A DNA stretch of 45,804 nucleotides from a virus, in the IMG/VR virus record IMGVR_UViG_3300021424_000074, positions 1 to 45,804 of that record; one strand, given 5' to 3'. Under the pieces are notes generated by a model. The model saw nothing but the letters and a program-made list of their open reading frames with translations. It ran no database searches and was not told the DNA's origin. Position 1 is the stretch's first letter. Each line of letters opens with the position of its first letter. Both the position numbers and the translations under genes were made by a program. Positions 14,190 through 40,810 of this stretch are shown piece after piece.

Positions 14190-14651
14190 ATGGCTAATGG
14201 TATTACATATGGTATAAATTTTCCTTTCAGACAAAGTCAAAAAGGAACTTATGTTAATTTAACAGAAGAAACAGGAGACGAAATACGTGCAAATTTGGTT
14301 CATCTATTACTAACAAGAAAGGGGTATAGGTATTATTTACCTGATTTTGGTACAAGACTTTATGAATATATTTTTGAACCTTTGGATGGTGAAACCTTTG
14401 ACACACTTAGATCTGAAATAGAAGACTCAGTTAATAAATATATACCTAACTTAACAATTCAAAATATTTCAATTGAACCATATATAAACTCAGAAGAATC
14501 TATAGGCGAATTACCATCAGAACAATTTGACATTCCTGTTTATAGGGTGCCTGGCGCTAATACTGAAGAATATACCGCAAAAGTTAAAATAGAATATACT
14601 GACGATAATAACCCTTTTGGATCCAGGGAATTTGTTATTATAAATTTATAG
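14190..14651 (+). CDS. Baseplate wedge protein, T4 gp25-like
   Basis: The 153-residue protein belongs to the gp25/GPW family, a conserved piece of the baseplate wedge core of contractile tails that contacts the sheath. The family order is clear: TGDEIRANLVHLLLTRKGYRYYLPDFGTRLYEYIFEP, where LLLTRKGYR and PDFGTRL are the most conserved parts, followed by a helix and a strand with NLTIQNISIEP. It is slightly longer than T4 gp25 (132 residues) because of an insertion near residues 100-130. It is the first gene of the baseplate operon and is followed after four bases by the gp6-like gene, the usual partner in the wedge. Confidence 0.9.
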   Translation: MANGITYGINFPFRQSQKGTYVNLTEETGDEIRANLVHLLLTRKGYRYYLPDFGTRLYEYIFEPLDGETFDTLRSEIEDSVNKYIPNLTIQNISIEPYINSEESIGELPSEQFDIPVYRVPGANTEEYTAKVKIEYTDDNNPFGSREFVIINL

Positions 14652-14655
14652 TAAA

Positions 14656-16494
14656 ATGGCAAACAAAAAAATATCATACACAGAAAGAGATTTTGAAGGA
14701 ATAAGAAGAGACTTATTAAACTTTACCCAACAGTATTATCCAGAGTTAATACAAAATTTTAATGATGCGTCTGTTTTTTCAGTCTTAATGGATTTAAATG
14801 CTGCGGTTGCCGATAACTTGAATTTCCACATAGATAGAAGTGTTCAAGAAACTGTTTTACAATATGCACAACAAAGGTCATCAATTTTTAACATCGCTAG
14901 AACATACGGTTTAAAAATTCCTGGATATAGACCTTCAGTTGCTGTTGTTGACATATCTATTACTGTTCCACCTTTAGGTGATAGTGAAGACACTAGATAT
15001 TTGGGTATTTTAAGAGCAGGTGCCCAATTTAATGGAGGAGGAACGACTTTTGAGACTTTATATGATATAGACTTCTCAAGTCAATTTAATGCCGAGGGTT
15101 TTATAAATAGAACAAAAAAACCAGTTTTCAATCAAAGTAACGGTTTAAATAGTTATATAATAACAAAAAGGGAGGTTGTTGTTAATGGAACAACAAAAGT
15201 TTTTAAAAGAGTAGTGAATTCTACTGACGTTGTACCATTTTTTAATTTTTTCTTACCTGAAAAAAACGTTTTAGGTGTCACATCAATAGTACAAAAAGAC
15301 GGTACGTCATACACAACAACACCATCATATAGTGATTTTAACAGTTCCACTGATAGGTGGTATGAGGTAGATTCTTTAGTCGAAGACACGATCTTTATTG
15401 AAGACCCAACTAAACCGGTAGACTCTGCGGGTGTTAAAGTTGGTAAATATCTAAAAACTGAAAATAGATTTATAACAGAATACACACCTGAAGGGTTTCT
15501 TAAAGTACAATTTGGTGCCTCAACAACAACTCCTAATGAACAACTTAGTAATTTCACAAGAACAGGTGTTCCACTAAATTTAGCCAATTACCAAAATAAT
15601 ATTGGTTTAGGTTTGACAGTAAAACCTAATACCACCTTATTTGTCCAATATAGAGTTGGTGGCGGACTGGCATCAAATATCGGTGTCGGAGCAATAACAC
15701 AAGTAGGCACTGTTGATTTTGTTGTGAATGGTCCTTCTGAACAATACAATAGAGATGTAGTACAATCATTAGAAGTAAATAACGTTACCGCAGCTATAGG
15801 TGGTGCAAATCAACCTACAATTGATGAAGTTAGAAATATGGTTACTTATAATTTTGCTGCTCAAAAAAGAGCGGTCACAATCAACGACTATAAATCTATA
15901 ATAGATACAATGCCTGGTAATTTTGGTGCACCAGCGAAAGTAGCAATAAGTGAAGTAGATAATAAAATATCAATTAAAATATTATCATATGATGATAGTG
16001 GGGTTTTAACACAGACAGTATCTAATAATTTGAAAACTAATTTAGCCACATATCTATCGAGATATAGAATGATAAATGACTACATTTCAATTGAAATAGC
16101 TAAAGTAATTGATTTAGAATTTGAGGTTTTTGTTGTTTTAGATAGTTCGGGTAGTCAAGCAGAAGTCATAACACAAATAATAAATAATATTAGTGGTTAT
16201 ATGTCACCACAATCGAGAGAGTTGGGTCAAAATGTTAATATTGCAGATATTAAAAGAAACATACAAGATATTAGTGGTGTAAATACAATAACCGAAATTA
16301 GGGTTTATAATAAAGTAGGTGGCCAGTATTCCTCATCAGAAACCTCACAAAGGTATATTGATAATACTACAAAACAAATAGAATTAATTGAAGAAACAAT
16401 ATACGCAGAACCTGATCAAATATATCAAGTTAGATTTGCAACTAAAGATATCAAAGTTAGAGTTAAAAATCTTTCAACCGTAGACTTCGGATAA
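14656..16494 (+). CDS. Baseplate wedge protein, T4 gp6 / baseplate J-like
   Basis: The 612-residue protein resembles T4 gp6 and the baseplate J family, which form the ring around the baseplate hub. The N-terminus SYTERDFEGIRRDLLNFTQQYYPEL followed by NDASVFSVLMDLNAAVADNLNFHIDR is characteristic: these helices position the protein on gp25. The middle part consists of beta-rich sequence, and the C-terminal part has the RAVTINDYKSIIDTMPGNF segment and an inter-domain dimerisation region (SPQSRELGQNVNIADIKRNI) known from gp6. Its length is close to T4 gp6 (660). It is coupled to the gp25-like gene and lies upstream of the giant 2088-residue gene. Confidence 0.88.
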   Translation: MANKKISYTERDFEGIRRDLLNFTQQYYPELIQNFNDASVFSVLMDLNAAVADNLNFHIDRSVQETVLQYAQQRSSIFNIARTYGLKIPGYRPSVAVVDISITVPPLGDSEDTRYLGILRAGAQFNGGGTTFETLYDIDFSSQFNAEGFINRTKKPVFNQSNGLNSYIITKREVVVNGTTKVFKRVVNSTDVVPFFNFFLPEKNVLGVTSIVQKDGTSYTTTPSYSDFNSSTDRWYEVDSLVEDTIFIEDPTKPVDSAGVKVGKYLKTENRFITEYTPEGFLKVQFGASTTTPNEQLSNFTRTGVPLNLANYQNNIGLGLTVKPNTTLFVQYRVGGGLASNIGVGAITQVGTVDFVVNGPSEQYNRDVVQSLEVNNVTAAIGGANQPTIDEVRNMVTYNFAAQKRAVTINDYKSIIDTMPGNFGAPAKVAISEVDNKISIKILSYDDSGVLTQTVSNNLKTNLATYLSRYRMINDYISIEIAKVIDLEFEVFVVLDSSGSQAEVITQIINNISGYMSPQSRELGQNVNIADIKRNIQDISGVNTITEIRVYNKVGGQYSSSETSQRYIDNTTKQIELIEETIYAEPDQIYQVRFATKDIKVRVKNLSTVDFG

Positions 16495-24600: not shown

Positions 24601-25426
24601 TAACTATTTTAGAAAAATACAAACAGTAAATGAACAATTTATCAATATCCCTATTGAGTTAACATTCGATATGGAAGGTAGAGAAGATTTAATAAGTCAA
24701 TGGGATAATCAAGTCATAGAAGAAGTATTAAATCCAATTAATGATTTCGAAATAACAAAATTTGCACACAAAGAGTATTCTGATAATAATATATTAAAAA
24801 CAGCAATAAACTACGAGTTTTATTTTTTTGATTATCTTATTGATTTAACGGCATCCACAATAACAAACTGGAATACCGATTATGAAAACGCATCTTTTAC
24901 TGATAGTGAAATATATTATTTTGCAAATTCATTTAAAGGTAGTTTTTTCAAACTAGATTTTTATGATAATAACATAAGTGAAACACAAACAATTTTATTA
25001 AGTGTAATTATACCGACACAACAAGGACTAAAAGAGACTGGAACTATCGGACCACCACTTAACCAAACACAAGTTGAGGTTAAAAAACCAAAATTTGTTT
25101 TAGACTATTCTGGTGCTGATAAAGAAGGTTTTTATATATATTGGTTAAAAGATAGGGGATATATTGATATAAACGAATTCTATGTAAGTGCTAAATTTTT
25201 TAACGCAAAAAAAGGTCAGTTCGTTAGATTATTAAACACACCACAATCATCTTTTGTTGGTAATAATAGATTTAATATAGATAAAACAGAGTATTTTTAT
25301 TATAAGTACGAATTAAATTATTCAACAAATCAATACGAAGTCTATACTTACGATAATAATATCGGAAATACTCAAAGAGTCGGGACCACAACACCCATAA
25401 CTTGGTATGAATACGCAAACCCATAA
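24593..25426 (+). CDS. Baseplate/tail structural protein, unknown family, GTG start
   Basis: The 277-residue protein starts with GTG at 24593, overlapping the preceding gene by eight bases; no ATG lies nearby, and the frame then gives MNNNYFRKIQTVNEQFINIP. It is a beta-rich, Asn/Tyr-rich protein with no recognised domain. Its TAA overlaps the ATG of the next gene (TAATG). A structural role in the baseplate or tail is inferred from the operon only. An alternative would be that translation reinitiates here after the upstream stop. Confidence 0.6.
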   Translation: MNNNYFRKIQTVNEQFINIPIELTFDMEGREDLISQWDNQVIEEVLNPINDFEITKFAHKEYSDNNILKTAINYEFYFFDYLIDLTASTITNWNTDYENASFTDSEIYYFANSFKGSFFKLDFYDNNISETQTILLSVIIPTQQGLKETGTIGPPLNQTQVEVKKPKFVLDYSGADKEGFYIYWLKDRGYIDINEFYVSAKFFNAKKGQFVRLLNTPQSSFVGNNRFNIDKTEYFYYKYELNYSTNQYEVYTYDNNIGNTQRVGTTTPITWYEYANP

Positions 25427-26508
25427 TGGAATCAGAAAGAATAAATATAATTATATCACCTGAAGTTTTAAAAAAGGATTTGTTTACTTTAAATTATGAT
25501 GGTGAATCATTTGGGTCATATTCTAGAATGTCACAAGTTTTAAGTAGTGGCGAGAACGGTAGTTCAATACTTACAGGACTAACGATACCAATTTTATTTA
25601 CTGAAACGTTTAATGATTTAGGTTTTTACGATGAATTTGACGGGTTTATTGATCAACAAGACACAATAAATAATTTTTTTATATCAGGAAACCCAACATC
25701 ACCTTACCAAGTTGTTATATATAATAGTGCCGGTTTCACAAATAATAATTATTTGGCTCTGTCTAACTATAATATTGAATGGGGTGACGGATCGAGTGCA
25801 AGCACAGTAAACATAAAACAAAATATACAAGTACATTATTATACACCAACACCTCAAACATACACTATCAAAATGACTCAAAATAATATTTGGGGAACTA
25901 CTGAGGTGATAAAATATGTTACACTACCATTTACCGGAGTTACTGTAGATAATGTTTTAGGTAATGTAACATTTACACAACAAGGTGGTAAGTGGTCAGG
26001 AATACCTTTGAATTATAACTATATTTTTACAGGAGATAGTAATAATAATGTCTCATCTCATTATTCAAGTGGCTATACACAAGTTCCTTTTATTGTCTCA
26101 GGATTTACAAACTCTAAACTAAATAGTCTTAGAAGATGGGGACCTAACCCATTTACCGTTGGTTATTTTATGAATGTTGGGAAAAATAATATAGGTTATG
26201 TTGAAGAAATAACCACCGATTATACAGCATACACAATTAATGATATAAGTTATTTTGATTTTAAAAATAAAACAACAATATATTTTGTTAATTCTTCAGG
26301 GTTTACTTCTTTAGATTTAATAGCTTCGGGATTAACTAAAAATGAATTATTACTTGACTTTGTTGCAGATCCAGAAATCAGATCTGATGTTTATGTTGAA
26401 AGAGGTAAATATTCAGGTTTTGAACAACTACAAAGACTTGGTGAGGTTGACAACATTGGAGACTTAACAAGGTATGGTTATGGATTTTTCAAAATAAAAA
26501 CAACATAA
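25426..26508 (+). CDS. Structural protein with PKD-like domain
   Basis: The 360-residue protein has one recognisable part: around residues 108-165 the segment IEWGDGSSAS followed by VHYYTPTPQTYTIKMTQN fits the PKD domain (W-x-D-G ... H-x-Y ... G/Q-x-Y-x-I-x-L), an immunoglobulin-like fold often used for surface interaction. The rest is beta-rich and unrecognised. It is coupled to the preceding gene by a TAATG overlap, and 34 bp separate it from the next gene. The likely role is a baseplate or tail structural component, maybe exposed on the virion. Confidence 0.6.
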   Translation: MESERINIIISPEVLKKDLFTLNYDGESFGSYSRMSQVLSSGENGSSILTGLTIPILFTETFNDLGFYDEFDGFIDQQDTINNFFISGNPTSPYQVVIYNSAGFTNNNYLALSNYNIEWGDGSSASTVNIKQNIQVHYYTPTPQTYTIKMTQNNIWGTTEVIKYVTLPFTGVTVDNVLGNVTFTQQGGKWSGIPLNYNYIFTGDSNNNVSSHYSSGYTQVPFIVSGFTNSKLNSLRRWGPNPFTVGYFMNVGKNNIGYVEEITTDYTAYTINDISYFDFKNKTTIYFVNSSGFTSLDLIASGLTKNELLLDFVADPEIRSDVYVERGKYSGFEQLQRLGEVDNIGDLTRYGYGFFKIKTT

Positions 26509-26522
26509 AAAACTCAATAAAC

Positions 26523-26536
26523 TCTATTTATAAATA
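26523..26536 (+). promoter_or_regulatory. Late-promoter-like motif with exact TATAAATA
   Basis: TCTATTTATAAATA includes TATAAATA (26529-26536), the exact -10 element of T4 late promoters, six bases before the ATG of the 302-residue gene. It is in the 34-bp gap after the PKD protein gene. Confidence 0.45.
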
Positions 26537-26542
26537 AAAAAC

Positions 26543-27451
26543 ATGGCACTAGGTTCATATGGTATAGTAAGACCCGCAGACGTTTCACCACAAGACGTTG
26601 AAATAATTTTGAATTACACTCCATCAAGAGACGTAACTAATGAATTCGTATTAAAAAAATTAGATACTGCAAGTATTTTTACACCTTATTTTCATAATTC
26701 AGATACTGGCGGAAATGCTAATGTTGAGATACTTGGAGGCCTTTACAATTTAAAATTACCCGCAAATGAATTTAACAAAATAGGTGTTTACACTCTATAT
26801 ATCAGACCTGCAGAAATAAGGATGAGAATTGAGGATTGTGGAGTTTTATCTGCATTACCAACAGTAAAGGGTATTGTTTTAAACTTAAATAATGTCCCAC
26901 AAGAATTTAGAAATAAATTTACAAATCAAGGTTTAGTTGGGTATAGAGTAGAATATTTAAATTCAGACGGAACAAAAATACCTAATTTTTATAGAATTAT
27001 AACATCTTCATTTTTTTGTGAACCAGTAATAACAGACCAAGTTAACACATCACAAAAAGTTATTAGATATAAATACTTAGAAAATGTTAGTGATTTACTT
27101 TTTTGTACATTATCACCATCATCGTCACCAACAAATAAACCAAACGCAACTCCATTTATAGGTCAACCAAACCAAAGGATAATAATAACAAATACATTTT
27201 TCAATCCAATAACGTTGGATATACAAATGTCAGAACATGATATAGATACTTTAGCGATAGCTCTTTATGGTAATCAAACTAAGAGTATGGATGACGGTAT
27301 ATATACTTTATATGATAGTGCAAACAACATTTACAAACAATATAACCTATTTGAGGTTAGAGATAATTTTAACGAGTTACTATACGAAGTAAGACAAGAT
27401 AGAGGAACAAATATAGACTTTAGTAAAAACTTTACAAATATTATTAGTTAA
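26543..27451 (+). CDS. Baseplate structural protein, 302 aa, unknown family
   Basis: The 302-residue protein begins MALGSYGIVRPADVSPQDVEI. It has a beta-rich body and a helical C-terminus (IDTLAIALYGNQTK, then LYEVRQDRGTNIDFSKNF). No known family is recognised with certainty. Position after the gp6-like region would correspond to gp8 in T4, but I see no sequence sign of gp8. A TAATG overlap couples it to the 995-residue gene. I infer a baseplate component. Confidence 0.6.
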   Translation: MALGSYGIVRPADVSPQDVEIILNYTPSRDVTNEFVLKKLDTASIFTPYFHNSDTGGNANVEILGGLYNLKLPANEFNKIGVYTLYIRPAEIRMRIEDCGVLSALPTVKGIVLNLNNVPQEFRNKFTNQGLVGYRVEYLNSDGTKIPNFYRIITSSFFCEPVITDQVNTSQKVIRYKYLENVSDLLFCTLSPSSSPTNKPNATPFIGQPNQRIIITNTFFNPITLDIQMSEHDIDTLAIALYGNQTKSMDDGIYTLYDSANNIYKQYNLFEVRDNFNELLYEVRQDRGTNIDFSKNFTNIIS

Positions 27452-30438
27452 TGGCAAAAACTAAATTTATATGTCCACCGCAAGCCGCAGTAGGTACGAG
27501 CACTTTTTCTGATGATTTAGTCGGGTTGCAGCTTGTTGCGGGTGGTGGTTTAACTTTAGGTAATTTTCAATTTACAACAGCAGTAAGTGGAAGAAATAAC
27601 AGAAGCTTTACGACAGGTGTTTTTTCTGAACCATTTAATTTAGAAAATATTAATATACCCACAATAGAACAGGCTAAATTAATAGTTCAAAAAAACTTTA
27701 GTGTATTTCCTAATTTTGACTTATCGCAAATTACTAGTTTTTCACTTTACGGTTCTTTGCAAAAAAGATTGGCCAGCTCAATAACTAAAATAATTAATTA
27801 CTTTCCTGCTGGTATACAAATTAATTCACAAAATTTAATTTTACAAACAGGAAATACGGCATTCAATATTACATATAACGAAATTGAAGATGAAACTACC
27901 TTTGATTCTGATATCACATTTTTTAATAATCCATTTGATATAGATTATTCAGAAAATGCTAATATTAATATTTCAAATAGACCAATAGCTGTATCTAAAT
28001 ATAGAAATATTACTGACAATTTTTCTGATTTTTCACTTTATGTTGGTAATTTAAATAATGAATATAATGTTGTCGATTTTGAACCATCACAAACTTTAAC
28101 AGGTGGCACAGTCACATTAACGGTTAAGGGTAAACCATTCACTTCAACAACAACCACAACAACAATTTTAGTAAAACCAAACAATTTAACAACAGAAAAA
28201 ATATTCAAGGACGATTTTGATGAGGTTGAGGATTTTTTATTAAATAGAAAAATAAATCCAGCATATACCACAGTGTTTAAATACCCAGATTATGATTCAG
28301 ATGGTAATTATGTAATGTTCACTAAAGAAATAACTTGGAAATTGGATGGTTTTTGGAATTTAGATATAAGAACAAGTAAGTTTGATGATTACTTACAAAT
28401 TATTAATGAAGTTGCTGAAAATTTAGATGAATATAAAACTAATTTAATTAGTAGATTTTTAATATCGGGTTCATTAAAAGAATTTGATACTGCAGATCAA
28501 AAAATAGAAAAGGTTCTACAACTATATGGTAGAAGTTTCGACGAAGTTAAAAAATTCATAGACTCATTAACATATATCACCTCTGTAAATTATATAGTTG
28601 GTAACGACATACCGTCACAATTATTAGTAAATTTGGCACAAACATTAGGGTTTAACAAAAACATGTCACCAATCACTAATGATAGTTTACTTGAAAGTAT
28701 TTTTTCAACTACTAATCAAATAATTTATCCTGGACAAACAAAACAACAAACACCAACAGAATTAAATTATCAATATTATAGAAATTTGATTTTGAATGCT
28801 GGTGAACTTTTTAGAACAAAAGGAACAAGAAAATCTATTGAATATATATTGAGAATGGTTGGTGCTCCTGAAGCACTTATTGAGTTTAATGAATACATTT
28901 ATATTGCAGATCAAAAAATATCAGTAGATGATTTTTATGAAAAATATGTAGAATTTTCAGGAGGAACTCAGTTCATATCACAACCATCATACTTAACAAC
29001 TAATCTTTTTAAAATACAAGGGGTACAATATACGGGATTTTCTACCACAGGAACTTTAAGACAAACAAATTTAGATTTGATATATTACCCAATAAATTTA
29101 AAAAACGGTTATCCCGAAACACCAGTTTATACCGATGATTATTTTTTCCAAAAAGGAGCCGGATGGTTTGAAGTTACACCCGATCATAGATCAACTGAGT
29201 TTATTGATACCAATCTTTCTAATTTTAATGTTACACCACCAATAATAAAAACATCTTTGAAACCATTTACCTACGGAGAGGAATACTTAGATAGGTTTAG
29301 AAAATTCCCATTTATGGATTTTGGATATAATTTAACAAAAACAATAGATAATAAAAAATCTTGGGTTTCTACAGAAAACGGAATTAGAAGTAACAATCAA
29401 GAATTGTCACAAACAAGATATTACATTGAAGACGAAAAATTAAGTCTGAACGTCAAAAATATGGAAGTCTATTTGAATATGGGACAAGGTATAACATACG
29501 ATATATGGGAAATGTCCGCAAGGTTCGGTTACCCGATACCAAATTCGGGATTGACTGCACCTTACCCTAGTCTTGGATTAAATGATTGGACAGTCATAAA
29601 CCCAAAACCAAACAAAAAAACTTTTGCAGAGTTCGCTCAAACCTTTTATAATAATTTAATTAATGTAAGAAATAGACAAACAATTTCTGATGGAAAAACA
29701 GGAGGTTATCCGACATTACAATCAATTTTTTGGAAATATTTGCAAACTGAAAACACAGTAAACATACCAACCAATAAATTCACACATCAAAAAATGATCG
29801 ATTTTACTTTAGGTATTGGTGATTATTGGGTTAGATTATTGGAACAATTTGTTCCTGCGACAACCATTTGGAATGCAGGACAAAAAATGGACAACTCAAT
29901 TTTTCACAGACAAAAATTTGTTTGGAGAAGACAAAGAAGTTGTGAGTTAATACCTTTGGCTTGTATACCATGTGAGTATATTGGACAACCATTTAATTAT
30001 GATTGTATAGATCAAACAACGCAGTGTACACTACCGGTTTTCGATCCCGCAACAGTGCTTAATACAAAAGTAAATGATATAATTTCTTCACAAGGTTACC
30101 TACCAAATCAATGTAATAGTAATACCACAATATCTACATGGGGAGTTATTGTTTCTTTGAAAGATATTATAACACAAAATGAAACTGAGTTAATTAATAG
30201 TGATTTTTTTGTTGGATACGGTCAAAACGCAACTGATCCAATAACAGGTTTACCTTTGAGTTATCCTAACATTTTAAATTATATAGATAATGAAATGGAG
30301 TATTTATATCAAAGCGGATTAAATTATTATTTCATTGGAGGGAACTTAATTATAAGTAACTCTTCATGTTATGATAATTTTACAAATAAACAACTAATTT
30401 TAAAAATTAGTTTGGACGTTCAAATTAATTGTGGGTAA
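27451..30438 (+). CDS. Large baseplate/tail protein
   Basis: The 995-residue protein contains near residue 449 a segment [19 protein letters not shown] followed by [15 protein letters not shown]. This pattern (helix, F-R-T-K-G-T-R, helix, hydrophobic turn, E-Y) occurs in tail proteins of the P2 gpI type and related baseplate proteins that link the baseplate to fibres. The rest is beta-rich with some helices around residues 320-370 ([20 protein letters not shown]). The C-terminus has cysteine-rich segments. It is coupled on both sides by TAATG overlaps, with the 302-residue gene before and the SprB-repeat fibre after. Linking the wedge to the fibres is inferred. Confidence 0.65.
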
Positions 30439-33191
30439 TGGCTTGTATTTCAGGGTATACTGATGAGATTTATTTTAGTTATTTTGATTGTTGCGGAAAC
30501 ATACAATCAGGTATTGGACCTTTATATCAATCTGTTTGTGCGGATCAGGCTCTTTCAGGTTCTTCGGTTGGTGTTTATTTAGACCCTTCACTTGTTTGTA
30601 CTGAGGATTGTGACACAGGACCATTAAGTTATAACTTTACAACAAGTGGTAATTGTGGTAATGTTTCTGCCGGAACAATAACTTTAAATGTTTATGGTGG
30701 ATTTGGTCCATATACTGTTGATAATATTGTACCAGGTTCTTTATCCTCACAAACGTTTAATTCACAAGCAACATACACCGGACTAACAGGAGGTACGTAT
30801 GTTTTTAGAATTAATGATAGTCAAGGAATACAAAATAATGAAATTTACTTCAATGCGATAATTTCAGAATGTTTTGAAGCAACAATAAGTGATGTCAATG
30901 GAACTAATTGTGGTTTAAGTGACGGGCAATTTACCGTAAACTCTACATCAAATAGTTCGCCATTTAAATTAATATTAAATAAAAATGGGTTATTTTCACA
31001 ATATATTGAAACGGGATCATTACCATATCAGTTTACTGGTTTAGATTATGGTATATATGATGTAACTGTTTATGACTTTGGGTTTACTACCGCAAAAACA
31101 GAAAATGTTGTTCTAAGTGCAAGCACAGAAATAGATTATGGTTTTTGGGTTGTAAATGCCGCGAACTGTGTGACAAATGGAGGTAAAGCCGCAGTCACAG
31201 GAACAACAGGTGTTGGTCCCTATAGTTATTTATGGTCTGATGGACAAACTACTCAATTGGCAACAGGATTGACTCAAGGAGTATACAGTGTACAAGTAAC
31301 TGATTTTTATGGATGTGTTACAGAAAAAGACGTTTTGATAGGTCAGGCACAACCTTTAGGTATTGGGTTATTAACAAGCGTTAATCCATCTTGTAATGGT
31401 TATGATGGGTCAATCACAATTAATTTAACAGGAGGAACCGCACCATTTTTCTATTCTGCAAATACAGGAACCGTTGGTTATACTTTATCAAATTCTTTTA
31501 CTTTAAATAACTTATCTAGTGGGTCTTACAATTTATTTATCAGAGACGCTAATTTCTGTCCATTAAATGCTTCTGTTTTTTTAACCGCACAAAACGGTAT
31601 ATATAATGTCGCAAATACTGTAACAAATTCAATTTGTAATCAAAATTCAGGTTCAATATACACAACATTTAATGGACCATACGCGAATAGTTTTCTTTTA
31701 GGATTAACAGGACAAACAACTAATGAGGTTAGAAATATAAGCACCGCAAATCAAAATTATACATTTCAAAATTTACCAAACGATACTTATACATTGGTAA
31801 TATCAGCACAAAATGGTACGTGTACTTATACTGATACAGTAACTGTAAATTCGCAAGAAAAATTTAATGTTAATATTTCAACAACAGGAGCCACTTGTGG
31901 TTCAGCTAGTGGTAATGTATTAGTAAATGTAGGTACGGGTTATACTAATTGGCAAACGGTAGGGTTATTAGATTATGTTTTAAGTAATGGTCAACAAGTT
32001 TATGATATTAGTTTAACATCGTTTACTTATAATAACTTGTCTGTTGGTCCATATACATTAACTGTGACAGATGAGGAAAACTGCTCAGTTACAAAAACGT
32101 TTAACATAACTCAAGGCGGGTATTTAAACAGTTCTTTATTATCAAATGATTGTCAATTTGGAAATGATGGTAATGCGACTGTTTTAATATTCGATGGAGA
32201 ACCAACATTCACATATGATTGGTCACCAAATATACCTGTAGGACAATCAGGATCCACTATTAGTGGGATGTCAGGAGGAACATATTATGTGACAGTTACG
32301 GATAGTAGTGGGTGCACAAATTACCACACTTTTTACATTGATTGTACAAGCACTTTGGTTACTGGTTCAACAACATATAATCTTTGTAGTTCTAACTTTG
32401 TGACAACATCTGGAACAAAAAGAGGTATTAGTGAAATGATTAGTGAAGGTTATTTAGATTTAACATCAGGGTATACCAACTGTATTTTAAATTCGGCGGA
32501 TCTAACATGTTCTATAACAATCAACAATAGTGCGTTTACTCAAACATTTATCGTTACAAACGACGCAACATGGCAACAAACTATAGAGTCTATTTTATCA
32601 ACAATTCCACAAGTCGGTTACTACTCAGTAGATTTATTAAATAACAAAATAACAATAAAGACTAATTGTGTAAATGGTTTGGTTGATCCCATAGGTAACG
32701 GTAATTTTATTTTAGAATTAGATATAGTTTTTGACATTTCTTGCCAAGACATTATACCTACACCAACACCTACACCAACACCAAGTCCTACACCAACACC
32801 AAGCCCAACACCAACACCAAGTCCTACACCAACACCAAGTCCTACACCAACACCAAGTCCTACACCGACTCCTACTCCTACACCTACATTTGCATCTATT
32901 CAATGGTTTGGATCTTACAATAGATACCCAAGTGCACTGTCGTTTGGTGCTTGCACAGAATCAAACTGTAGTGTAATTTACTATACAACAGGAAGTTCCA
33001 TTAATAACGGTGATGTTATCTATACCAATCCGGCATTAACAATAAACGCAGGCTCGACAGCACAAAATTATCCACCATCACAAGGAGGCTATGGGTTTAT
33101 GTATTTAGATACCACATGCCCACCAACAGGTACTAGAAATGTGTTTAGACTTAATAATTTAGGAGTAGTGTCAAGTAAATTTATTTGTTAA
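30438..33191 (+). CDS. Tail fibre/adhesin with SprB-like repeats and Pro-Thr linker
   Basis: I chose ATG 30438 (917 residues), whose ATG overlaps the stop of the previous gene; a TTG at 30429 would add three residues. Residues about 70-636 comprise seven repeats of the SprB type (C-x(4-6)-G, GG-x-x-PY, Y-x-W-SDG, G-x-Y-x-V-x-V-T-D-x-x-G-C), known from flavobacterial gliding adhesins. A unique domain follows at about 640-770, then a 44-codon Pro-Thr/Ser linker (774-817) and a C-terminal domain of about 100 residues with several cysteines that may bind the receptor. No signal peptide is present. The protein is probably a long adhesive fibre; the repeats form immunoglobulin-like modules. Confidence 0.75.
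30648..32345 (+). repeat. Seven SprB-like repeats (coding)
   Basis: Seven units of about 75-85 residues begin with a cysteine and small residues ([56 protein letters not shown]) and end in TDxxGC-like turns. The third and seventh are the closest to the flavobacterial pattern ([17 protein letters not shown]). Units differ strongly, so they are not a recent expansion. Confidence 0.75.
32757..32888 (+). repeat. Pro-Thr-Ser linker repeat (coding)
   Basis: Forty-four codons encode alternating Pro-Thr with a Ser in every third position (PTPTPS units). The DNA is a short tandem repeat of ccaacaccaagtcctaca. The same kind of linker occurs in the gene at 37334. It is likely an extended, possibly glycosylated stalk. 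Confidence 0.9.
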
Positions 33192-33192
33192 C

Positions 33193-33480
33193 ATGCCATA
33201 CTCAATAGATATAACATCACTAACAGGAGGTATTGCACCGATAAATATTTATGCTTGTGACGAATACGGAAATAATTGCACATTATTAGGCACATCACCT
33301 GGAATTTACGTATTACCAACATTGTTACAGACCGCTACTACCATTATGGTTAAATCGGTTGATAGCACGGGTTGTATTTACTTCAAAATTATTTCTTGTG
33401 CTCCTGAAGATGAATATTTTATCCTTACAGAATTGGGTGATTTTTTAACAACAGAAGGTGGGGACGCGTTAGTTTTGTAG
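33193..33480 (+). CDS. Small Cys-containing module, stand-alone
   Basis: The 95-residue protein begins MPYSIDITSLTGGIAPINIYACDEYGNNC and then has a VDSTGCIYFKIISC segment. The same pattern (I-x-x-L-T-G-x-x-P-x-x-I-y-x-C, later V-D-x-x-G-C-x-x-x-x-x-x-C) forms the N-terminal 75 residues of the next protein and the whole of the 71-residue protein at 38968. It is thus one of three paralogous modules in the fibre region. The function is unknown; a fibre-tip, fibre-chaperone or trimerisation role is possible. It starts one base after the SprB-type fibre stop, so it is co-translated. Confidence 0.65.
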   Translation: MPYSIDITSLTGGIAPINIYACDEYGNNCTLLGTSPGIYVLPTLLQTATTIMVKSVDSTGCIYFKIISCAPEDEYFILTELGDFLTTEGGDALVL

Positions 33481-33485
33481 TAATA

Positions 33486-33497
33486 AATATTTATTAT
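33486..33497 (+). promoter_or_regulatory. Late-promoter-like motif
   Basis: AATATTTATTAT lies in the 18-bp gap before the BspA-like gene and ends two bases before the ATG. At this distance a transcript from it would be leaderless or nearly so. Confidence 0.25.
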
Positions 33498-33498
33498 T

Positions 33499-35208
33499 AT
33501 GATAATTAATATAACAGGAGATACTGGTGGTGTTGAACCATATGACGTTTTTTTATGTGAACAAACCAACTATAGTTGTTTTTATATATCGGGACTAACA
33601 TCAATCCCAGGAACAGTTGAAATAAATAGCCAATATTATTTTCCAAATGAATATTTGTTATATTTGAAAATTGTTGACACAATTGGTTGTGTCAAATTAT
33701 TCCCTTTAGATTGTGGTCAATCAAAATTTGAATCAACTTGGGATACAAAAAATCTTGGTGTTTCAGCGGCAAACCAAATACAACTTCCTTTGGAGTCTTC
33801 TGGAGCATATAACTTCTTTATTGAATGGGGTGATGGAAATTATGATACAATTACAGTTTGGAATGATCCTGCAACATTACATACATACACAACACCTGGA
33901 CTATACACAATAAAGATTTATGGACAAATAGAAGGTTTTAGATTTAATTATGTTGGTGATAGAGAAAAAATATTAAGTATTCAATCTTGGGGTTCTGATT
34001 TTAGATTGGGTAATAATGGTGGATATTTTTACGGTTGCACAAATTTAGATTTAAGTTCAGTTTCAGATATTTTAGATTTGACAGGAACTTTATCTTTGTC
34101 TTCTGCTTTTAGTGATTGTGCGTCTCTTACAACGGTCAACAATATGAATTTGTGGGATACATCTTCTGTTACAAATATGAGTTTAATGTTTTTGTATGCA
34201 ACATCATTTAATCAACCAATTGGAACTTGGGATACATCTTCCGTTACAGATATGCTTGGTATGTTTTTTAATGCAACATCATTCAATCAACCAATTGGAA
34301 CTTGGAATACATCTTCTGTTACAAATATGCGTCAAATGTTTGAAGATGCAACATCATTCAATCAACCAATTGGAACTTGGAATACATCTTCTGTTACAGA
34401 TATGAGTTTAATGTTTTTTAATGCAACATCATTTAATCAACCAATTGGAACTTGGAATACATCTTCCGTTACAGATATGCTTGGTATGTTTGCTAATGCA
34501 ACATCATTTAATCAACCAATTGGAACTTGGAATACATCTTCCGTTACAGATATGCTTGGTATGTTTTTTAATGCAACATCATACAATCAACCAATTGGAA
34601 CTTGGGATACATCTTCTGTTTCAAATATGGGTACTATGTTTAATGGTGCAACATCATTTAACCAACCAATTGGAACTTGGAATACATCTTCTGTTATAAA
34701 TATGGGTGCTATGTTTTTAAATGCAACATCATTTAATCAACCAATTGGAACTTGGAATACATCTTCTGTTACAAATATGATTGAAATGTTTCTAGACGCA
34801 ACATCATTTAATCAACCAATTGGAACTTGGAATACATCTTCTGTTACATTTATGGATAATATGTTTAATGGTGCAACATCATTTAACCAACCAATTGGAA
34901 CTTGGAATACATCTTCTGTTACAGATATGAATAATATGTTTCAAAATGCAACATCATTTGACCAAGATTTGGGTTCTTGGGATGTTACATCATTAACATC
35001 CGCAGCAAATATGTTTTTAGGTGTTACACTATCAACACCAAACTATAATTCACTACTTATTGGTTGGGCATCATATGGTGGTGCTTTACAATCTAACGTT
35101 CCTTTTCACGGAGGCGGTTCTATTTATACAATAGCAATAGCTGGTGCTTCGAGAAATTATTTAACAGGAACAAAATTATGGACAATCACCGACGGAGGTG
35201 GAATTTAA
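33499..35208 (+). CDS. BspA/DUF285-like repeat adhesin
   Basis: The 569-residue protein has three parts. Residues 1-75 are the small Cys module. Residues about 78-205 begin [20 protein letters not shown] and include [13 protein letters not shown], a PKD-like fold, ending in YFYGCTNL; this is the usual lead-in to BspA-like repeats. Residues 234-483 are ten units of 25 residues ([19 protein letters not shown] plus variable residues around MF), with degenerate units on both sides. Such DUF285 repeats occur in surface proteins of Bacteroidota and mollicutes and bind host or partner molecules. There is no signal peptide or anchor, as expected for a virion protein. It is a good candidate for the receptor-binding fibre. 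Confidence 0.8.
34198..34947 (+). repeat. Ten tandem 75-bp repeats (DUF285/BspA-like)
   Basis: Exactly ten 75-base units start with gcaacatcatt. The first 57 bases of each are nearly identical, including synonymous positions; the differences cluster in codons 18, 20-21 and 24-25, the last four around the fixed Met-Phe (for example LG/FN, RQ/ED, SL/FN, IE/LD, NN/QN). An eleventh, diverged unit follows ([11 protein letters not shown]). The DNA identity points to recent expansion or gene conversion. Confidence 0.9.
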
Positions 35209-35211
35209 TCA

Positions 35212-35226
35212 TTTATTTATTAATAT
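35212..35226 (+). promoter_or_regulatory. Late-promoter-like motif
   Basis: TTTATTTATTAATAT lies in the 48-bp gap before the first glycosyltransferase gene and matches the recurring motif except at its 3' end. About 30 bases of AT-rich leader follow. Confidence 0.35.
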
Positions 35227-35256
35227 CATTTTTTATTTTTAAATTAAAAATATTAA

Positions 35257-36498
35257 ATGAATACAATATTTATTCAAATCGCGTCATATAGAGATCCGGA
35301 ACTTTTACCAACAATAAGATCTTGCTTAGAAAACGCCAAATACCCACAAAATTTGACATTCGGTATTGCAAGACAATTTCACCCAAATGATAAATTTGAT
35401 AATCTTACTGAATATGAAATCGATGATAGATTCACCATATTAAATATACCGCACCGAGAATCAAAAGGTGTTTGTTGGGCACGTAATCAAGTACAACAAT
35501 TATATAAAGGAGAAGAGTATACCCTACAAATTGATTCTCATATGAGGTTTGAAAAATATTGGGATGAAACTTTAATTGATATGATAAAACAATTACAAGA
35601 ATTAGGAATACCAAAACCTTTATTAACGGGGTATGTTTCATCATATAATCCAAATAATGATCCACATGGAAGAGTAAGAGTGCCTTGGAGAATGGCGTTT
35701 GATAAATTTATACCTGAAGGTGCTGTCTTTTTTTTACCTGAAGCAATCCCTGATTGGCAAAATATAGACCTACCAATACCATCAAGATTTTATTCTGCAC
35801 ATTTTTGTTTCACATTAGGACAATTTTCAAAAGAAGTACAACACAATCCTGATTTTTATTTCCATGGAGAAGAAATATCAATTACAGTTAGAGCGTTTAC
35901 GCAAGGATATGATTTATTTCATCCACATAGAGTTGTTTTATGGCATGAATACACAAGAAATGGTAGAGTTAAACAGTGGGATGATGATAAAGAATGGTGG
36001 AAGTTAAATGAAAACGCACATTTATTGAATAGAAAACTATTTGGTATGGATGGTGAAACACAAGAAGGACATTATGGAAAATATGGTTTAGGTAACGTAA
36101 GAACTTTAAGAGATTATGAAAAATATGCTGGACTATTATTTGAAAAAAGAGCAGTACAAGAGTACACATTAAATAAAAATTACCCACCAAACCCTGAGTA
36201 CGATACAGAAAAAGAATGGTTAGAAAGTTTTACAAGAAATTTTGATTATTGTATTAATTTAGATGTCGATGAACTTAAAGAACCTGACTATGATTTTTGG
36301 GCGGTAACTTTTCACAATCAAACAGGAAGTGAAATACATAGAAAAGATTGTACGGAAGATGAAATAAAAAATTATCTAAATAACGGTTTTGTAAATATAT
36401 GTAGAAATTTTTTAGTGACAGAAACACCAAAATCATGGTCTGTTTGGGTACATTCTAAAACAAAAGAATGGATAAAACAATATACGGGTAATGTATGA
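35257..36498 (+). CDS. GlcNAc-transferase-like glycosyltransferase
   Basis: The 413-residue protein fits the GlcNAc family (PF11397), which includes the Skp1 hydroxyproline GlcNAc-transferase of eukaryotes and many bacterial and viral relatives. Visible marks are FIQIASYRDPEL at residues 5-16, GVCWARNQVQ at 71-80, and QIDSHMRFEKYWD with the DxH metal/sugar-nucleotide motif at 93-95, then FYFHGEEISITVRAF and VVLWHEYTR, all in family order. The C-terminal 120 residues are not recognised. The protein is cytosolic, with no membrane segment. It sits between the BspA-like fibre and the Pro-Thr-linker fibre and overlaps the next glycosyltransferase gene by four bases (ATGA), so they act together. 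Substrate: a fibre protein or host glycan, inferred. Confidence 0.78.
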   Translation: MNTIFIQIASYRDPELLPTIRSCLENAKYPQNLTFGIARQFHPNDKFDNLTEYEIDDRFTILNIPHRESKGVCWARNQVQQLYKGEEYTLQIDSHMRFEKYWDETLIDMIKQLQELGIPKPLLTGYVSSYNPNNDPHGRVRVPWRMAFDKFIPEGAVFFLPEAIPDWQNIDLPIPSRFYSAHFCFTLGQFSKEVQHNPDFYFHGEEISITVRAFTQGYDLFHPHRVVLWHEYTRNGRVKQWDDDKEWWKLNENAHLLNRKLFGMDGETQEGHYGKYGLGNVRTLRDYEKYAGLLFEKRAVQEYTLNKNYPPNPEYDTEKEWLESFTRNFDYCINLDVDELKEPDYDFWAVTFHNQTGSEIHRKDCTEDEIKNYLNNGFVNICRNFLVTETPKSWSVWVHSKTKEWIKQYTGNV

Positions 36499-37277
36499 TA
36501 AAAAGGTCAGTGATTGTAACCGCTTTATTTGATATCGGAAGAGATAAATGGAATAATTATAATCAATCATATAATACTTATTTATTTTGGATGGATAATA
36601 TTTTGAATGTCGATTCTGATTTTATTATTTATACTGAACAAAAGTTTTTAGATAGGATAATAGAAAGTAGAAAAAAAATAGATAAAGATTTATCTAGAAC
36701 TAAAATAATTATACAAAATTTTGAAGATCTTAATTCTTATAAAAAATTCCATCGAAAAATAGTAAACTTAATGTCATCAGAAGAGTTTAAAAAAAAAATA
36801 CACTTCCAAGTTCCAGAAATGTTGTATGCAGAATATAATACTATAATATTTAACAAGTTTTATTTTATTAAAAATGCAATAGAAGAAAGTGATTATGATT
36901 TTTATGTTTGGTGTGATGCTGGATTATTGAGAGACAATAGTAAACAAGGTAAAATTTTTCCAAAAATTGAAAAATTAGAAGAAGATTATTTAAATAAAAT
37001 AACGTTTTTCAGTCACGATACAAATTTTAAAATAACAAACAGAGAATTACATTTACTATCACAATATAGGTATATACACGGAGGTTGTTTTTTCGTTCCA
37101 AAAAAATCGAACATTAATTTTTTAATAAATTATTTTGAAACCTTATTACAAAAATATTTTGATTTTGGATACGTTGGTAGCGAAGAAAAGTATTTTGATT
37201 TTTGTTATGAAGACAATAAAGATGAATTTAACATAGTTAAATCAGATTGGAGGCAATATTTTGAACTATTCGGATAA
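36495..37277 (+). CDS. HtrL/YibB (WlaTC)-like glycosyltransferase
   Basis: The 260-residue protein resembles the HtrL/YibB family, which contains the WlaTC-type glycosyltransferases. Matching features are VTALFDIGRDKWNNY at the N-terminus, WMDNIL, DFIIYTEQKF, IIIQNFEDL, FNKFYFIKNA, YDFYVWCDAGLLRD (the acidic residue for metal or sugar nucleotide), and YIHGGCFFVPK near the C-terminus. The length is near the family norm. It overlaps the preceding glycosyltransferase gene by four bases and is followed after 56 bp by the fibre with Pro-Thr linkers. I infer that the two enzymes add successive sugars to the same acceptor; the sugar and acceptor are unknown. Confidence 0.75.
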   Translation: MIKRSVIVTALFDIGRDKWNNYNQSYNTYLFWMDNILNVDSDFIIYTEQKFLDRIIESRKKIDKDLSRTKIIIQNFEDLNSYKKFHRKIVNLMSSEEFKKKIHFQVPEMLYAEYNTIIFNKFYFIKNAIEESDYDFYVWCDAGLLRDNSKQGKIFPKIEKLEEDYLNKITFFSHDTNFKITNRELHLLSQYRYIHGGCFFVPKKSNINFLINYFETLLQKYFDFGYVGSEEKYFDFCYEDNKDEFNIVKSDWRQYFELFG

Positions 37278-37304
37278 AATACACTTCAATAAAATGAACT
37301 TGTG

Positions 37305-37319
37305 ATTATTTATATAATA
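37305..37319 (+). promoter_or_regulatory. Late-promoter-like motif
   Basis: ATTATTTATATAATA lies 14 bases before the ATG of the Pro-Thr-linker fibre gene, in the 56-bp gap after the glycosyltransferases. Confidence 0.4.
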
Positions 37320-37333
37320 AAGTCTAATTTTTA

Positions 37334-38962
37334 ATGGCAAATTTAAGATTCGAGGGTTGTTGTTATGAAGGTTATCAATATGTAACTGATGATGCTACTT
37401 GGAACGCAACTGGAGCAACAACCGCATTAACCACAACATATCATTTTTCGGGTGATGCGGTTGTTCCTGATGGTTGTTATACTATTGTATCCGCATTTAC
37501 TTCTGGTTTTAGTGCAACTACTTTCACAACATATAACGGAGTATATACAATACAGTCCGATTGCTCAACAATTTTATGTGATACAGGTCATTGTTGTAGT
37601 AATGAAATATGTGTTAATATTTCTTTTGACAGTTATTCTGGCTTCAATGGTAACTATATTGTTTCAGGTAACTTTAATAGTTATCCTTTTTGGACAGGCG
37701 GTACAAGTGGATCAACTATCTATTTCAATAACACTAATTGGTGCCTTTCAACAGGACTGACATCTACTTGTGTTTTTTTTGGCAATAATCCTACTTTCGA
37801 TTTATGCCCCGATTTTGATATTACCGTCGCAACAAGTGGCACTTGTGTACCAACACCAACACCATACGACCCATGTTCAATATTAGATTTTGATGTTCTA
37901 ACTCTCTGTGATATACCAACACCAACACCTACAGCGTCACCAACACCCACGCCTACCCCAACACCCACCCCAACACCTACAATTGGTCCTTGTGCAACAT
38001 ACACCGTTGGCATATCTTTTAGCGGGTATACCCCACCACCTACACCAACTCCAACACCATCACCTACTCCTACGCCAATAATATATCCATATAATATAAA
38101 TTCTGGAGTTACTTATGTTATTGATAGTGGAAATTTTGTCTGTGTTAATAGTAAAATACTTGAAGATTGTAATAGCAATGACATTTATAGTGTATTAGGT
38201 CCTTTGTTATTCTCTGGTAATACAATAATCACTGGAACAACATTCTTTGCATTCATTAATGGAGAATACAAATGTTTGAAATACATTGAAGACGATAATG
38301 GTAGTCCAATTGATTATTTAAGTGACATATTTTCAACAGCAAGTACTTGTTCAACCTGTGTTCTTGTTACACCAACACCTACACCAACGCCTACACCGAG
38401 CCCAACACCGACACCTACACCTAGTCCAACACCTGCACCTACATACCCTATTAATACTAACTTTGTTTTCACATCATGCACAAATAATACAATGATAATA
38501 CAATACAGTATACCTCCTTATAACATATCTAACGGTTCTATCTTAAAAGATTTGTCAGGTAATTGTTATTCATATGTTGGGTATTTCACTAACTATACAC
38601 CACCTTCGGGATATATGTGGTCAGTGATTGAAACTTTTACAGGAACAAGCGCAACAACATACACGAATTGCTTGACTTGTCTTACACCAACACCAACACC
38701 TGGACCTTCATATAAGGTTTGGTCAGGAAAGGGTGAATTTACAGTATCTTGTCCTACTTGTGATTTAGTAAATGGTGGTAGTGATATAACTTTCTACACG
38801 TCTTCAGGCGTGACATCAATAAATGAAAATGTTTATGTTTATGAAGATAGTTCTTTAACTATACCTTTGTTTACATCATATATAAAATATTCGAATAAAA
38901 TTTACTCAGTCAACCAACAAGGAAAACTTACAGAATTTTGTTCAGTAAATGGAAATTGTTAA
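37334..38962 (+). CDS. Cys-rich tail fibre with several Pro-Thr linkers
   Basis: The 542-residue protein alternates small Cys-rich, Gly/Thr/Tyr-rich modules with Pro-Thr linkers. Modules are at about residues 1-185, 217-232, 250-345, 372-450 and 460-542; linkers at about 195-216, 234-248, 346-370 and a short one at about 451-458. The first module begins [17 protein letters not shown]. Near residue 350 the C-T-C motif (STCSTCVLV) precedes a linker. No known fold is recognised, and no signal peptide is present. A fibre built of disulphide or metal-stabilised beads on a stiff linker is inferred. It is the first gene after the two glycosyltransferases and the most likely glycoprotein substrate besides the gene at 30438. 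Confidence 0.65.
37916..37981 (+). repeat. Pro-Thr linker repeat 1 (coding)
   Basis: Twenty-two codons of alternating Pro-Thr with one Ala-Ser break are encoded by an imperfect ccaacaccc-type tandem repeat. It is similar in DNA to the linkers at 32757 and 38369. Confidence 0.85.
38033..38077 (+). repeat. Pro-Thr linker repeat 2 (coding)
   Basis: Fifteen codons encode Pro-Pro-Pro-Thr followed by Pro-Thr/Ser alternation. It separates a 17-residue beta-like insert ([16 protein letters not shown]) from the next module. Confidence 0.8.
38369..38443 (+). repeat. Pro-Thr linker repeat 3 (coding)
   Basis: Twenty-five codons of Pro-Thr/Ser/Ala alternation, the longest linker in this gene, are encoded by a tandem repeat like that at 32757. 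Confidence 0.85.
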
Positions 38963-38967
38963 AAAAT

Positions 38968-39183
38968 ATGGCAACATTAGTATCATTAACAGCAACAACA
39001 GGGACTCTTCCATTAGATATTTGGATTTGTGATTCGTGTTTGAGCACTGCGACTTGTGTTTATTACGACACAACAAATGCTTTACCATATTCTTTTACAT
39101 TACCTGAAGAATATGAAAATAACGCAGTTTATGCGATAAGAGTTATTGACAATAATAGTTGTGAATACTGTATAGAAAATTAA
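38968..39183 (+). CDS. Small Cys-containing module, stand-alone, copy 3
   Basis: I chose ATG 38968 (71 residues, MATLVSLTATTGTLP), five bases after the preceding stop; a TTG at 38938 would overlap the fibre gene. The sequence follows the pattern of the 95-residue protein at 33193 and of the N-terminus of the BspA-like protein: LTATTGTLPLDIWICDSC, then YAIRVIDNNSCEYCIEN. It ends in CEYC, a pair in place of the longer C-terminal stretch of the other copies. The function is unknown; its position between two fibre genes supports a fibre-associated role. It is co-transcribed with both neighbours. Confidence 0.65.
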   Translation: MATLVSLTATTGTLPLDIWICDSCLSTATCVYYDTTNALPYSFTLPEEYENNAVYAIRVIDNNSCEYCIEN

Positions 39184-39187
39184 TATT

Positions 39188-40810
39188 ATGTCAATTTATA
39201 GTGGTAACAGTTGTAATATAATAACATTATTTCCAATGAGCGTTCAATGTTCGGTTGTAAATGCTTATTCACCTGAAACAAATGATGGAGGGGTTTATTT
39301 AATTATTACTGGGGGAACTCCACCGTATAGTATTTCTTGGACAAACGGATCGCAAAGTCAAAACTTAATCGGTGTTGGTGCGGGTGAATACACCGCAACA
39401 GTAACCGATTATTATAACGATTTTAGTGCTACAACAACTTGTATAGTGGGAACCAATAGTTTTTATTTAGAAGAGTTTTTCAGTTGTGTGGAACCCACAA
39501 ATAAATTATATTATTTAGCCAATTTAAATTTTTTATACCCAACAGGCGATACGTTTACAATTACATCACAATCGGGATGTTGGGTAAGTAATGGTTTAAC
39601 ACTATATTCAGGTCAAAGTTATTACAATTATAGTGCAACCACAACATCAGGACCATTTGAAGACTGTACTGAATGTTTACCTATTACTCCTGAGTTTGAA
39701 AATACTTCAGGTTTATGTTTGAATACCGTTGGTTTTACTATTGTCGGATTTCAAGTAACTTCACAATTAACCCAATATCAATTCTTTTCTGCGGGAACAT
39801 ATAACGGATACCCAAGTTGGACATCATCAACACCTAGTCAAAAAATTTATTTCAATTCTGCAACTAATAATTGGAACGTATCTGGATGGACATTAACCGG
39901 CGTTCCGGTACTTGGACAACAAATTTCACCACCAATAGGCATATGGACGGTAAACGGAGGTAATAGAACTGTAAACGTAACACAAGGTAATTGTGGGACA
40001 AACATAATAGCAAACATACAAAAAACAAACCCAACTTGTAATTTATCAACAGATGGTACAATAATAGTAAATAACGTTGCTGGAGGAACTTCACCATACA
40101 CATATTCACTCAATAATATAACGTATCAAAACTCTAATATTTTTAATAACCTATCAACAGGTAATTACACAATTTATGTTAAAGACGTTATTGGGAATAT
40201 CTCAACATTTGGTGCGGTCTTAACACCTCAACAATCAACAACAACATACCAAGTAGATTTAAGTTTTGTTCCAAGTAGTCCAACATCAATAAGTACGACA
40301 AATAGTGTTCAAAAAACCGCTAATTGGGTTATTAGTGTTACTCCACCGTTACCGACTAACAGAGTGGTTAATATGACTATTTATAACACTACATCTATGT
40401 CTGCGGGGACCGCAAGTAACGGATCACCAACTTTAACATATTCTAACGTTACTGGAACTACTGGAACTGCACAATTTTTAACTTCTAACATACAAACAAC
40501 AACAAATAGTTATCCAAATATAGTTGCTTGTCACCCTAATTTTTATACCACAGGTATAACAAGAACATACACCGTTAGTATTTCAGGTACAGGGACTGTT
40601 ACAGGTACAATTTTTCAAAAAGTACAAGTGGTAAATTCGGGGCAAGGTTGTGTTACAAAAGGAACAATTGGTGATACTATTTCTATCGGAAATATCGTGT
40701 TATTAAATCAACAAACTTGCGAAACTATAAGTAACAATGTGACACCGATAACAGTTTCGGTAAATAAAGAAGGTAGTTTAGCATTTTCACAAAATAATCA
40801 AACAGGATAA
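39188..40810 (+). CDS. Tail fibre with SprB-like repeats
   Basis: The 540-residue protein contains at least two SprB-like units. The first, residues about 18-80, has GGVYLIITGGTPPYSISWTNG and then GAGEYTATVTDYYND. The second, about 280-345, has NPTCNLSTDGTIIVNN, GGTSPYTYSLNN and STGNYTIYVKDVIGN. Between them is a beta-rich part with the segment NGYPSWTSSTPSQKIYFNSATNNW, which also resembles a module in the gene at 37334 ([22 protein letters not shown]); the two fibres thus share a domain. The C-terminal part is Thr/Ser/Val-rich and unrecognised. No signal peptide is present. It begins four bases after the small Cys module gene. Confidence 0.7.
   Translation: MSIYSGNSCNIITLFPMSVQCSVVNAYSPETNDGGVYLIITGGTPPYSISWTNGSQSQNLIGVGAGEYTATVTDYYNDFSATTTCIVGTNSFYLEEFFSCVEPTNKLYYLANLNFLYPTGDTFTITSQSGCWVSNGLTLYSGQSYYNYSATTTSGPFEDCTECLPITPEFENTSGLCLNTVGFTIVGFQVTSQLTQYQFFSAGTYNGYPSWTSSTPSQKIYFNSATNNWNVSGWTLTGVPVLGQQISPPIGIWTVNGGNRTVNVTQGNCGTNIIANIQKTNPTCNLSTDGTIIVNNVAGGTSPYTYSLNNITYQNSNIFNNLSTGNYTIYVKDVIGNISTFGAVLTPQQSTTTYQVDLSFVPSSPTSISTTNSVQKTANWVISVTPPLPTNRVVNMTIYNTTSMSAGTASNGSPTLTYSNVTGTTGTAQFLTSNIQTTTNSYPNIVACHPNFYTTGITRTYTVSISGTGTVTGTIFQKVQVVNSGQGCVTKGTIGDTISIGNIVLLNQQTCETISNNVTPITVSVNKEGSLAFSQNNQTG

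Follow-up and report, generated by a model that had tools for sequence, protein, structure and literature searches.

A fixed array of seven SprB-repeat units as the probable shaft of a baseplate-proximal phage fibre with exchangeable tips

Repeats of the Pfam family PF13573 are named after SprB, and in Bacteroidota they occur in SprB and its paralogues as tandem units of ~75-90 aa with the pattern GG-PY-W...VTD-GC. Tandem Ig-like domains also occur in GhpA, the Aureispira grappling hook (PDB 9flp, 9fly, 9flw), which serves a bacterium in predation and is T9SS-secreted, heptameric, and about 5000 aa long. Among phages, such domains occur in probable structural proteins, namely T4 Hoc-like proteins and further decoration or fibre proteins of the Ig-like type, and a close precedent is a crAss-like phage tail protein with tandem BACON repeats, which are likewise common to Bacteroidota surface proteins (PMC6949934). 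Components of the gliding apparatus have been proposed as receptors of flavobacterial phages (PMC7345892, PMC13288928), and phages can be carried passively by gliding swarms (PMC10434198). A literature search on SprB repeats in phages found nothing relevant and no description of these repeats as phage fibre modules. Here we examine an array of PF13573 units in a viral record (IMGVR_UViG_3300021424_000074; the whole stretch analysed, 45,804 nucleotides, is referred to as the window). The array shares profile family, unit length, and pattern with SprB and its paralogues, but differs from them in its seven fixed positions, its baseplate-gene neighbourhood, and the T9SS C-terminal domain, which was not found. 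It is set apart from T4 Hoc-like proteins by adjoining baseplate-region genes and by its SprB sequence family, and from the crAss-like protein by its different domain family and its fixed number of seven units.

The first-pass annotation had reported SprB-type repeats in two genes of the window, which begin at 30438 and 39188, and both pass the PF13573 gathering score of 28 (37.5 and 36.9 bits). When this family was scanned alone, it gave six matches in the window, all inside these two genes and none outside them. The reported number and position of the units held as well, since a profile of nine units recovers exactly seven tandem units in gene 30438 and two in gene 39188. Each unit was also scored with a profile from which it had been left out and compared with 1000 shuffles of itself: eight of the nine outscored all of their shuffles, while unit 5 was the weak one, with 1/1000 shuffles scoring equally well. 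Gene 30438 starts at the ATG at 30438 (MACISGYT...), which overlaps the upstream stop, and the same start is seen in orthologues. The features of the two proteins are as follows.

30438..33191, + strand: seven-unit SprB-repeat (Ig-like) protein, putative fibre or shaft, 917 aa (PF13573 over gathering score; seven units by profile; orthologues in 80 viral loci)
30624..30866, + strand: Ig-like unit U1 (profile; 20.7 bits when left out)
30870..31124, + strand: Ig-like unit U2 (profile; 25.3 bits when left out)
31131..31352, + strand: Ig-like unit U3, the most canonical, with ...VQVTDFYGC (profile; 46.8 bits when left out; PF13573 match at 31164)
31368..31595, + strand: Ig-like unit U4 (PF13573, 39.4 bits at 31374-31472)
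31599..31859, + strand: Ig-like unit U5, the weakest (profile; 12.1 bits when left out; CarboxypepD_reg-like beta-sandwich by Pfam)
31863..32117, + strand: Ig-like unit U6 (profile; 28.6 bits when left out)
32124..32351, + strand: Ig-like unit U7 (profile; 30.3 bits when left out)
39188..40810, + strand: second protein (540 aa), carrying SprB-repeat units at two places, 39233-39457 and 40004-40237 (PF13573 over gathering score; profile; PHROG 26672, virion structural protein)

The span 30438-40810, to which the repeats had been ascribed, also holds unrelated genes, namely one with PARCEL repeats, two glycosyltransferase-like genes, and one encoding a proline-threonine-rich modular protein.

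An AlphaFold2 model built with 48 orthologues consists of tandem beta-sandwich domains (mean pLDDT 79), with a pTM of 0.36, so that the domain-to-domain arrangement is not fixed by the model. The units are thus predicted to be Ig/FN3-like beta-sandwiches. In Foldseek, the best PDB matches were segments of GhpA, followed by Ig and complement-type proteins; GhpA provides the solved structures closest to the model (E down to 6e-19), even though its identity to the phage model is only about 15-18%. VIA-align returned FN3 tandems at Z of about 11, with a large rmsd across several domains. The best viral structural match was UniProt A0A6J5LD72, entered as 'SprB repeat' [uncultured Caudovirales phage], which matches nearly the whole core (TM 0.51, 30% identity) and is apparently a member of the same family; its annotation is automatic only, and we found no paper describing it. 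Two groups of sequence matches to the full protein were rejected: PDB entries 8zvk, 6ncl, and similar ones fall on its proline-threonine linker, as do the NCBIfam matches to BimA and SslE, which are far below cut-off. The first-pass annotation had set a special closeness to SprB against placement in a generic immunoglobulin-like family; such a placement applies to the fold of the units, but not to their sequence profile.

A scan of IMG/VR viral contigs with unit 3 yielded at least 136 relatives, from which the best 80 loci were fetched; the relatives are by this choice phages with a unit 3, and any without it would escape the scan. Among the 69 fetched loci with a complete 3' gene end, 64 have exactly seven detected units and the remaining five have six above threshold, while the bacterial SprB-repeat proteins that we fetched have from a few to about 50. 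PF13573 was matched by all 48 orthologues (E 0.001 or better). We then compared the units by position in 36 representatives of less than 80% identity to one another, and for 251 of the resulting 252 units the best match was the positional counterpart in another phage. Units scored 190 on average against their counterparts elsewhere, far above the 81 reached by the highest-scoring other unit of their own protein, and each of the seven positions formed its own clade in a tree of the units. Because the number of units is fixed and orthology runs position by position, the array is best regarded as an old structure of fixed length. By sequence, it is a constant component, specific in each position, of an uncultured aquatic phage lineage that forms a large group. 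Its appearance is that of a long-established structural shaft and not of a SprB imitation acquired recently, and a recent capture is contradicted by these results. A single clade for all phage array units was not rejected (p-AU 0.22), with too few columns to decide between one and several origins. In a nucleotide search of phage records there was no match, and a protein search of phage records with the core found only LR756502, a 642-kb metagenomic phage, at 31% identity. One of the two units of 39188 has a match at 36-37% in the Polaribacter phages P12002L/S, but these phages were discarded, as their protein has no PF13573 match.

The surroundings of gene 30438 point to the baseplate region of a T4-like phage, with the following features upstream.

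14190..16494, + strand: T4-like baseplate wedge genes, gp25-like at 14190 and gp6-like at 14656 (PHROG 261/43 and 219/10646)
27451..30438, + strand: conserved protein upstream of the array gene, a candidate P2 gpI-like baseplate wedge with a related C-terminal domain (sub-threshold PF09684 and TIGR02242; adjoins the putative fibre gene in 80/80 loci; hhalign)

Within the window, the P2 gpI families PF09684 and TIGR02242 match gene 27451 alone, with both scores below cut-off, and in relatives the TIGR02242 match lies in an equally large open frame. The block upstream of the array gene (24593-27451) has matches in 79-80 of the 80 best relatives. At their C-termini, 27451 and 30438 carry domains related to one another (hhalign probability 97, E 4e-11). 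The structure of 27451 was predicted with low confidence (pLDDT 60), and a structural search with that model gave no match. The P2 gene order is W-J-I-H. The order of gp25-like, gp6-like, candidate gpI-like, and putative fibre gene in the window resembles it. A 2088-aa protein with DUF5122 beta-propeller repeats is encoded at 16565-22831, after the gp6-like gene and before the fibre block.

Downstream of the seven units, the locus has the following features.

32427..32744, + strand: conserved-core C-terminal domain of alpha/beta type, related to the 27451 C-terminus (AlphaFold2 secondary structure; hhalign)
32756..33188, + strand: proline-threonine linker (32756-32888), followed by a short C-terminal extension specific to the lineage (tandem repeats; comparison of complete orthologues)
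33193..33753, + strand: gene 33193 together with the first 85 aa of gene 33499, docking-like domains related to each other and degenerate relatives of the Ig-like units (hhalign)
33499..35208, + strand: putative exchangeable tip protein with 11 PARCEL/DUF285 repeats (PF03382, 568 bits; TIGR02167; tandem repeats; partial homologue fused in L087)

The extension is missing in many orthologues, which end at the core, and in others it ranges variably from tens to several hundred residues. The 33193 family and the family of the 33499 N-terminus matched each other at 98.9% in hhalign, and against the units they reached 92.7% and 67.4%. Within the fetched loci, the 33499 tip recurs in just two: in L019, which is near-identical, and, as a partial homologue, in L087, a single relative in which one gene (L087:7314-10772) joins the seven-unit core, a proline-threonine linker, and the partial tip homologue (122 residues, 43% identity). 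L003 and L004 carry other fibre and LRR proteins at the tip region, judging from a reading of their sequences. On this comparative evidence, the locus has the pattern of a shaft that stays constant and tips that are exchanged. In gene 33499, positions 34153-34959 hold eleven PARCEL/DUF285 DNA repeats of 75 bp that are almost identical, and arrays of this kind can expand or contract. Also inside the adhesion locus, 35257-37277 holds a GlcNAc-type glycosyltransferase gene (PHROG 24687; homologues in 44/80 relatives) and an HtrL/YibB-like gene (10/80), the products of which may glycosylate the fibres. The protein encoded at 37334-38962 has modules connected by proline-threonine linkers; it is conserved in 38/80 relatives and matches no Pfam family.

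We consider it probable that the product of gene 30438 is a conserved fibre or whisker, situated near the baseplate in an uncultured lineage of T4-like phages that probably infects Bacteroidota, and that this protein serves as a shaft with exchangeable tips. Its N-terminal domain would dock on the tail, the seven tandem Ig-like SprB-repeat domains would form a shaft of fixed length, and the C-terminal domain would cap this shaft and, in some phages, bear a variable adhesive extension. The exchangeable tips would be encoded next door, as PARCEL/LRR proteins here and as other modules in relatives, with 39188 belonging to the same adhesion locus. The repeats would then act as spacers, possibly with weak glycan binding, and receptor choice would reside in the variable tips. 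We infer the location of the protein on the virion from its gene neighbourhood and from PHROG annotation, and findings that count against a tail fibre include the naming of head decoration in the PHROG matches and the gpI matches below cut-off. If this reading is correct, it defines a conserved adhesion locus for a large uncultured aquatic phage lineage, with a constant shaft and variable tips, and once a member phage is isolated, the locus tells which parts to test for host recognition.

The same array could instead decorate the capsid or neck in the manner of Hoc, attaching weakly to surfaces or mucus-like glycans, which we regard as unlikely. The PHROG family 'Hoc-like head decoration' was matched by 21 of the 48 orthologues, and weak PDB profile matches fell on decoration and neck-whisker proteins; however, the PHROG matches may mirror the shared Ig fold only. 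A decoration protein is also at odds with the position of 30438 directly after baseplate-region genes in every one of the 80 loci, with the kinship of its C-terminal domain to that of 27451, and with the fusion of its core to tip modules in L087.

Whether SprB itself supplied the repeats bears on a further set of readings. The annotation of the repeats as a family named after SprB and common to Bacteroidota surface proteins is borne out by the PF13573 matches, but a special closeness to SprB is not. The best bacterial matches to the units are scattered over Saprospiraceae, Crocinitomicaceae, Chitinophagaceae, Runella, and other lineages, and those to unit 3 stem from many Bacteroidota families, with one in the gammaproteobacterium Marinicella; a scan of genome contigs with phage-specific stretches found nothing, while the scan with unit 3 gave bacterial matches. 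The seven array units are nearer to units of other phages than to any of 1373 bacterial units, and the two units of 39188 are slightly nearer to bacterial units, in a comparison where most bacterial loci had been picked as best matches to unit 3 and are therefore favoured for that unit. Only three of the candidate sprB loci fetched held units, several holding none detectable. These three putative SprF-linked flavobacterial adhesins, encoded near PorP/SprF and used as stand-ins for F. johnsoniae SprB, had ranks that changed with the unit, from first place down to unranked, and were not consistently preferred. A T9SS C-terminal sorting domain (TIGR04131/TIGR04183) was found neither in the window proteins at E 0.1 nor in nine full-length family members, including that of the window, at E 0.01. 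GldG was over cut-off in 23 of 27 PF13573 carriers versus 4 of 91 non-carriers (118 Bacteroidota genomes, counted by hand), an association that could be partly or wholly explained by phylogeny. As PF13573 is typical of Bacteroidota with gliding genes, this supports a Bacteroidota host, a phylum that we infer as the probable one, rather than a SprB mimic. The shared repeat family perhaps reflects an ancient common origin of the phage and Bacteroidota repeats.

It is conceivable, albeit improbable, that the Ig-like units bind a partner of the host's own T9SS adhesins, such as a surface glycan or adhesin, with the shaft joining in attachment to gliding hosts; if so, the phage shaft would attach through a module common to its hosts' adhesins. 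The idea advanced at first, that the repeats were captured from a host gliding adhesin and kept so as to engage its binding partners or move along with the gliding machinery, is very doubtful. In its favour are a Pfam family common to host adhesins, the concentration of PF13573 in GldG genomes, and the gliding components proposed as receptors; however, the putative SprF-linked adhesins are not specially close, the array is fixed and ancient, and the structurally nearest protein is GhpA, which also belongs to the T9SS proteins but is not SprB. That gliding would transport the phage protein through SprB's own signal is unlikely because the T9SS sorting domain was not found, and neither mimicry nor transport is supported. 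It is similarly hard to credit that phages passed the repeat on to bacterial adhesins or that both drew on a common ancient pool, with the array as a pure spacer devoid of binding: a single clade of phage units is not rejected and a fixed number suits a length-determining shaft, but Bacteroidota hold the repeat in far greater abundance and variety, a point in favour of a bacterial origin, and binding by the units remains compatible with the data. A PF13573 match does not equal a gliding adhesin, the family being a broad Ig-like module in surface proteins of Bacteroidota and in phages.

Elsewhere in the window, at 9133-12090, a ribonucleotide reductase gene is split by an intein that bears a LAGLIDADG endonuclease domain.
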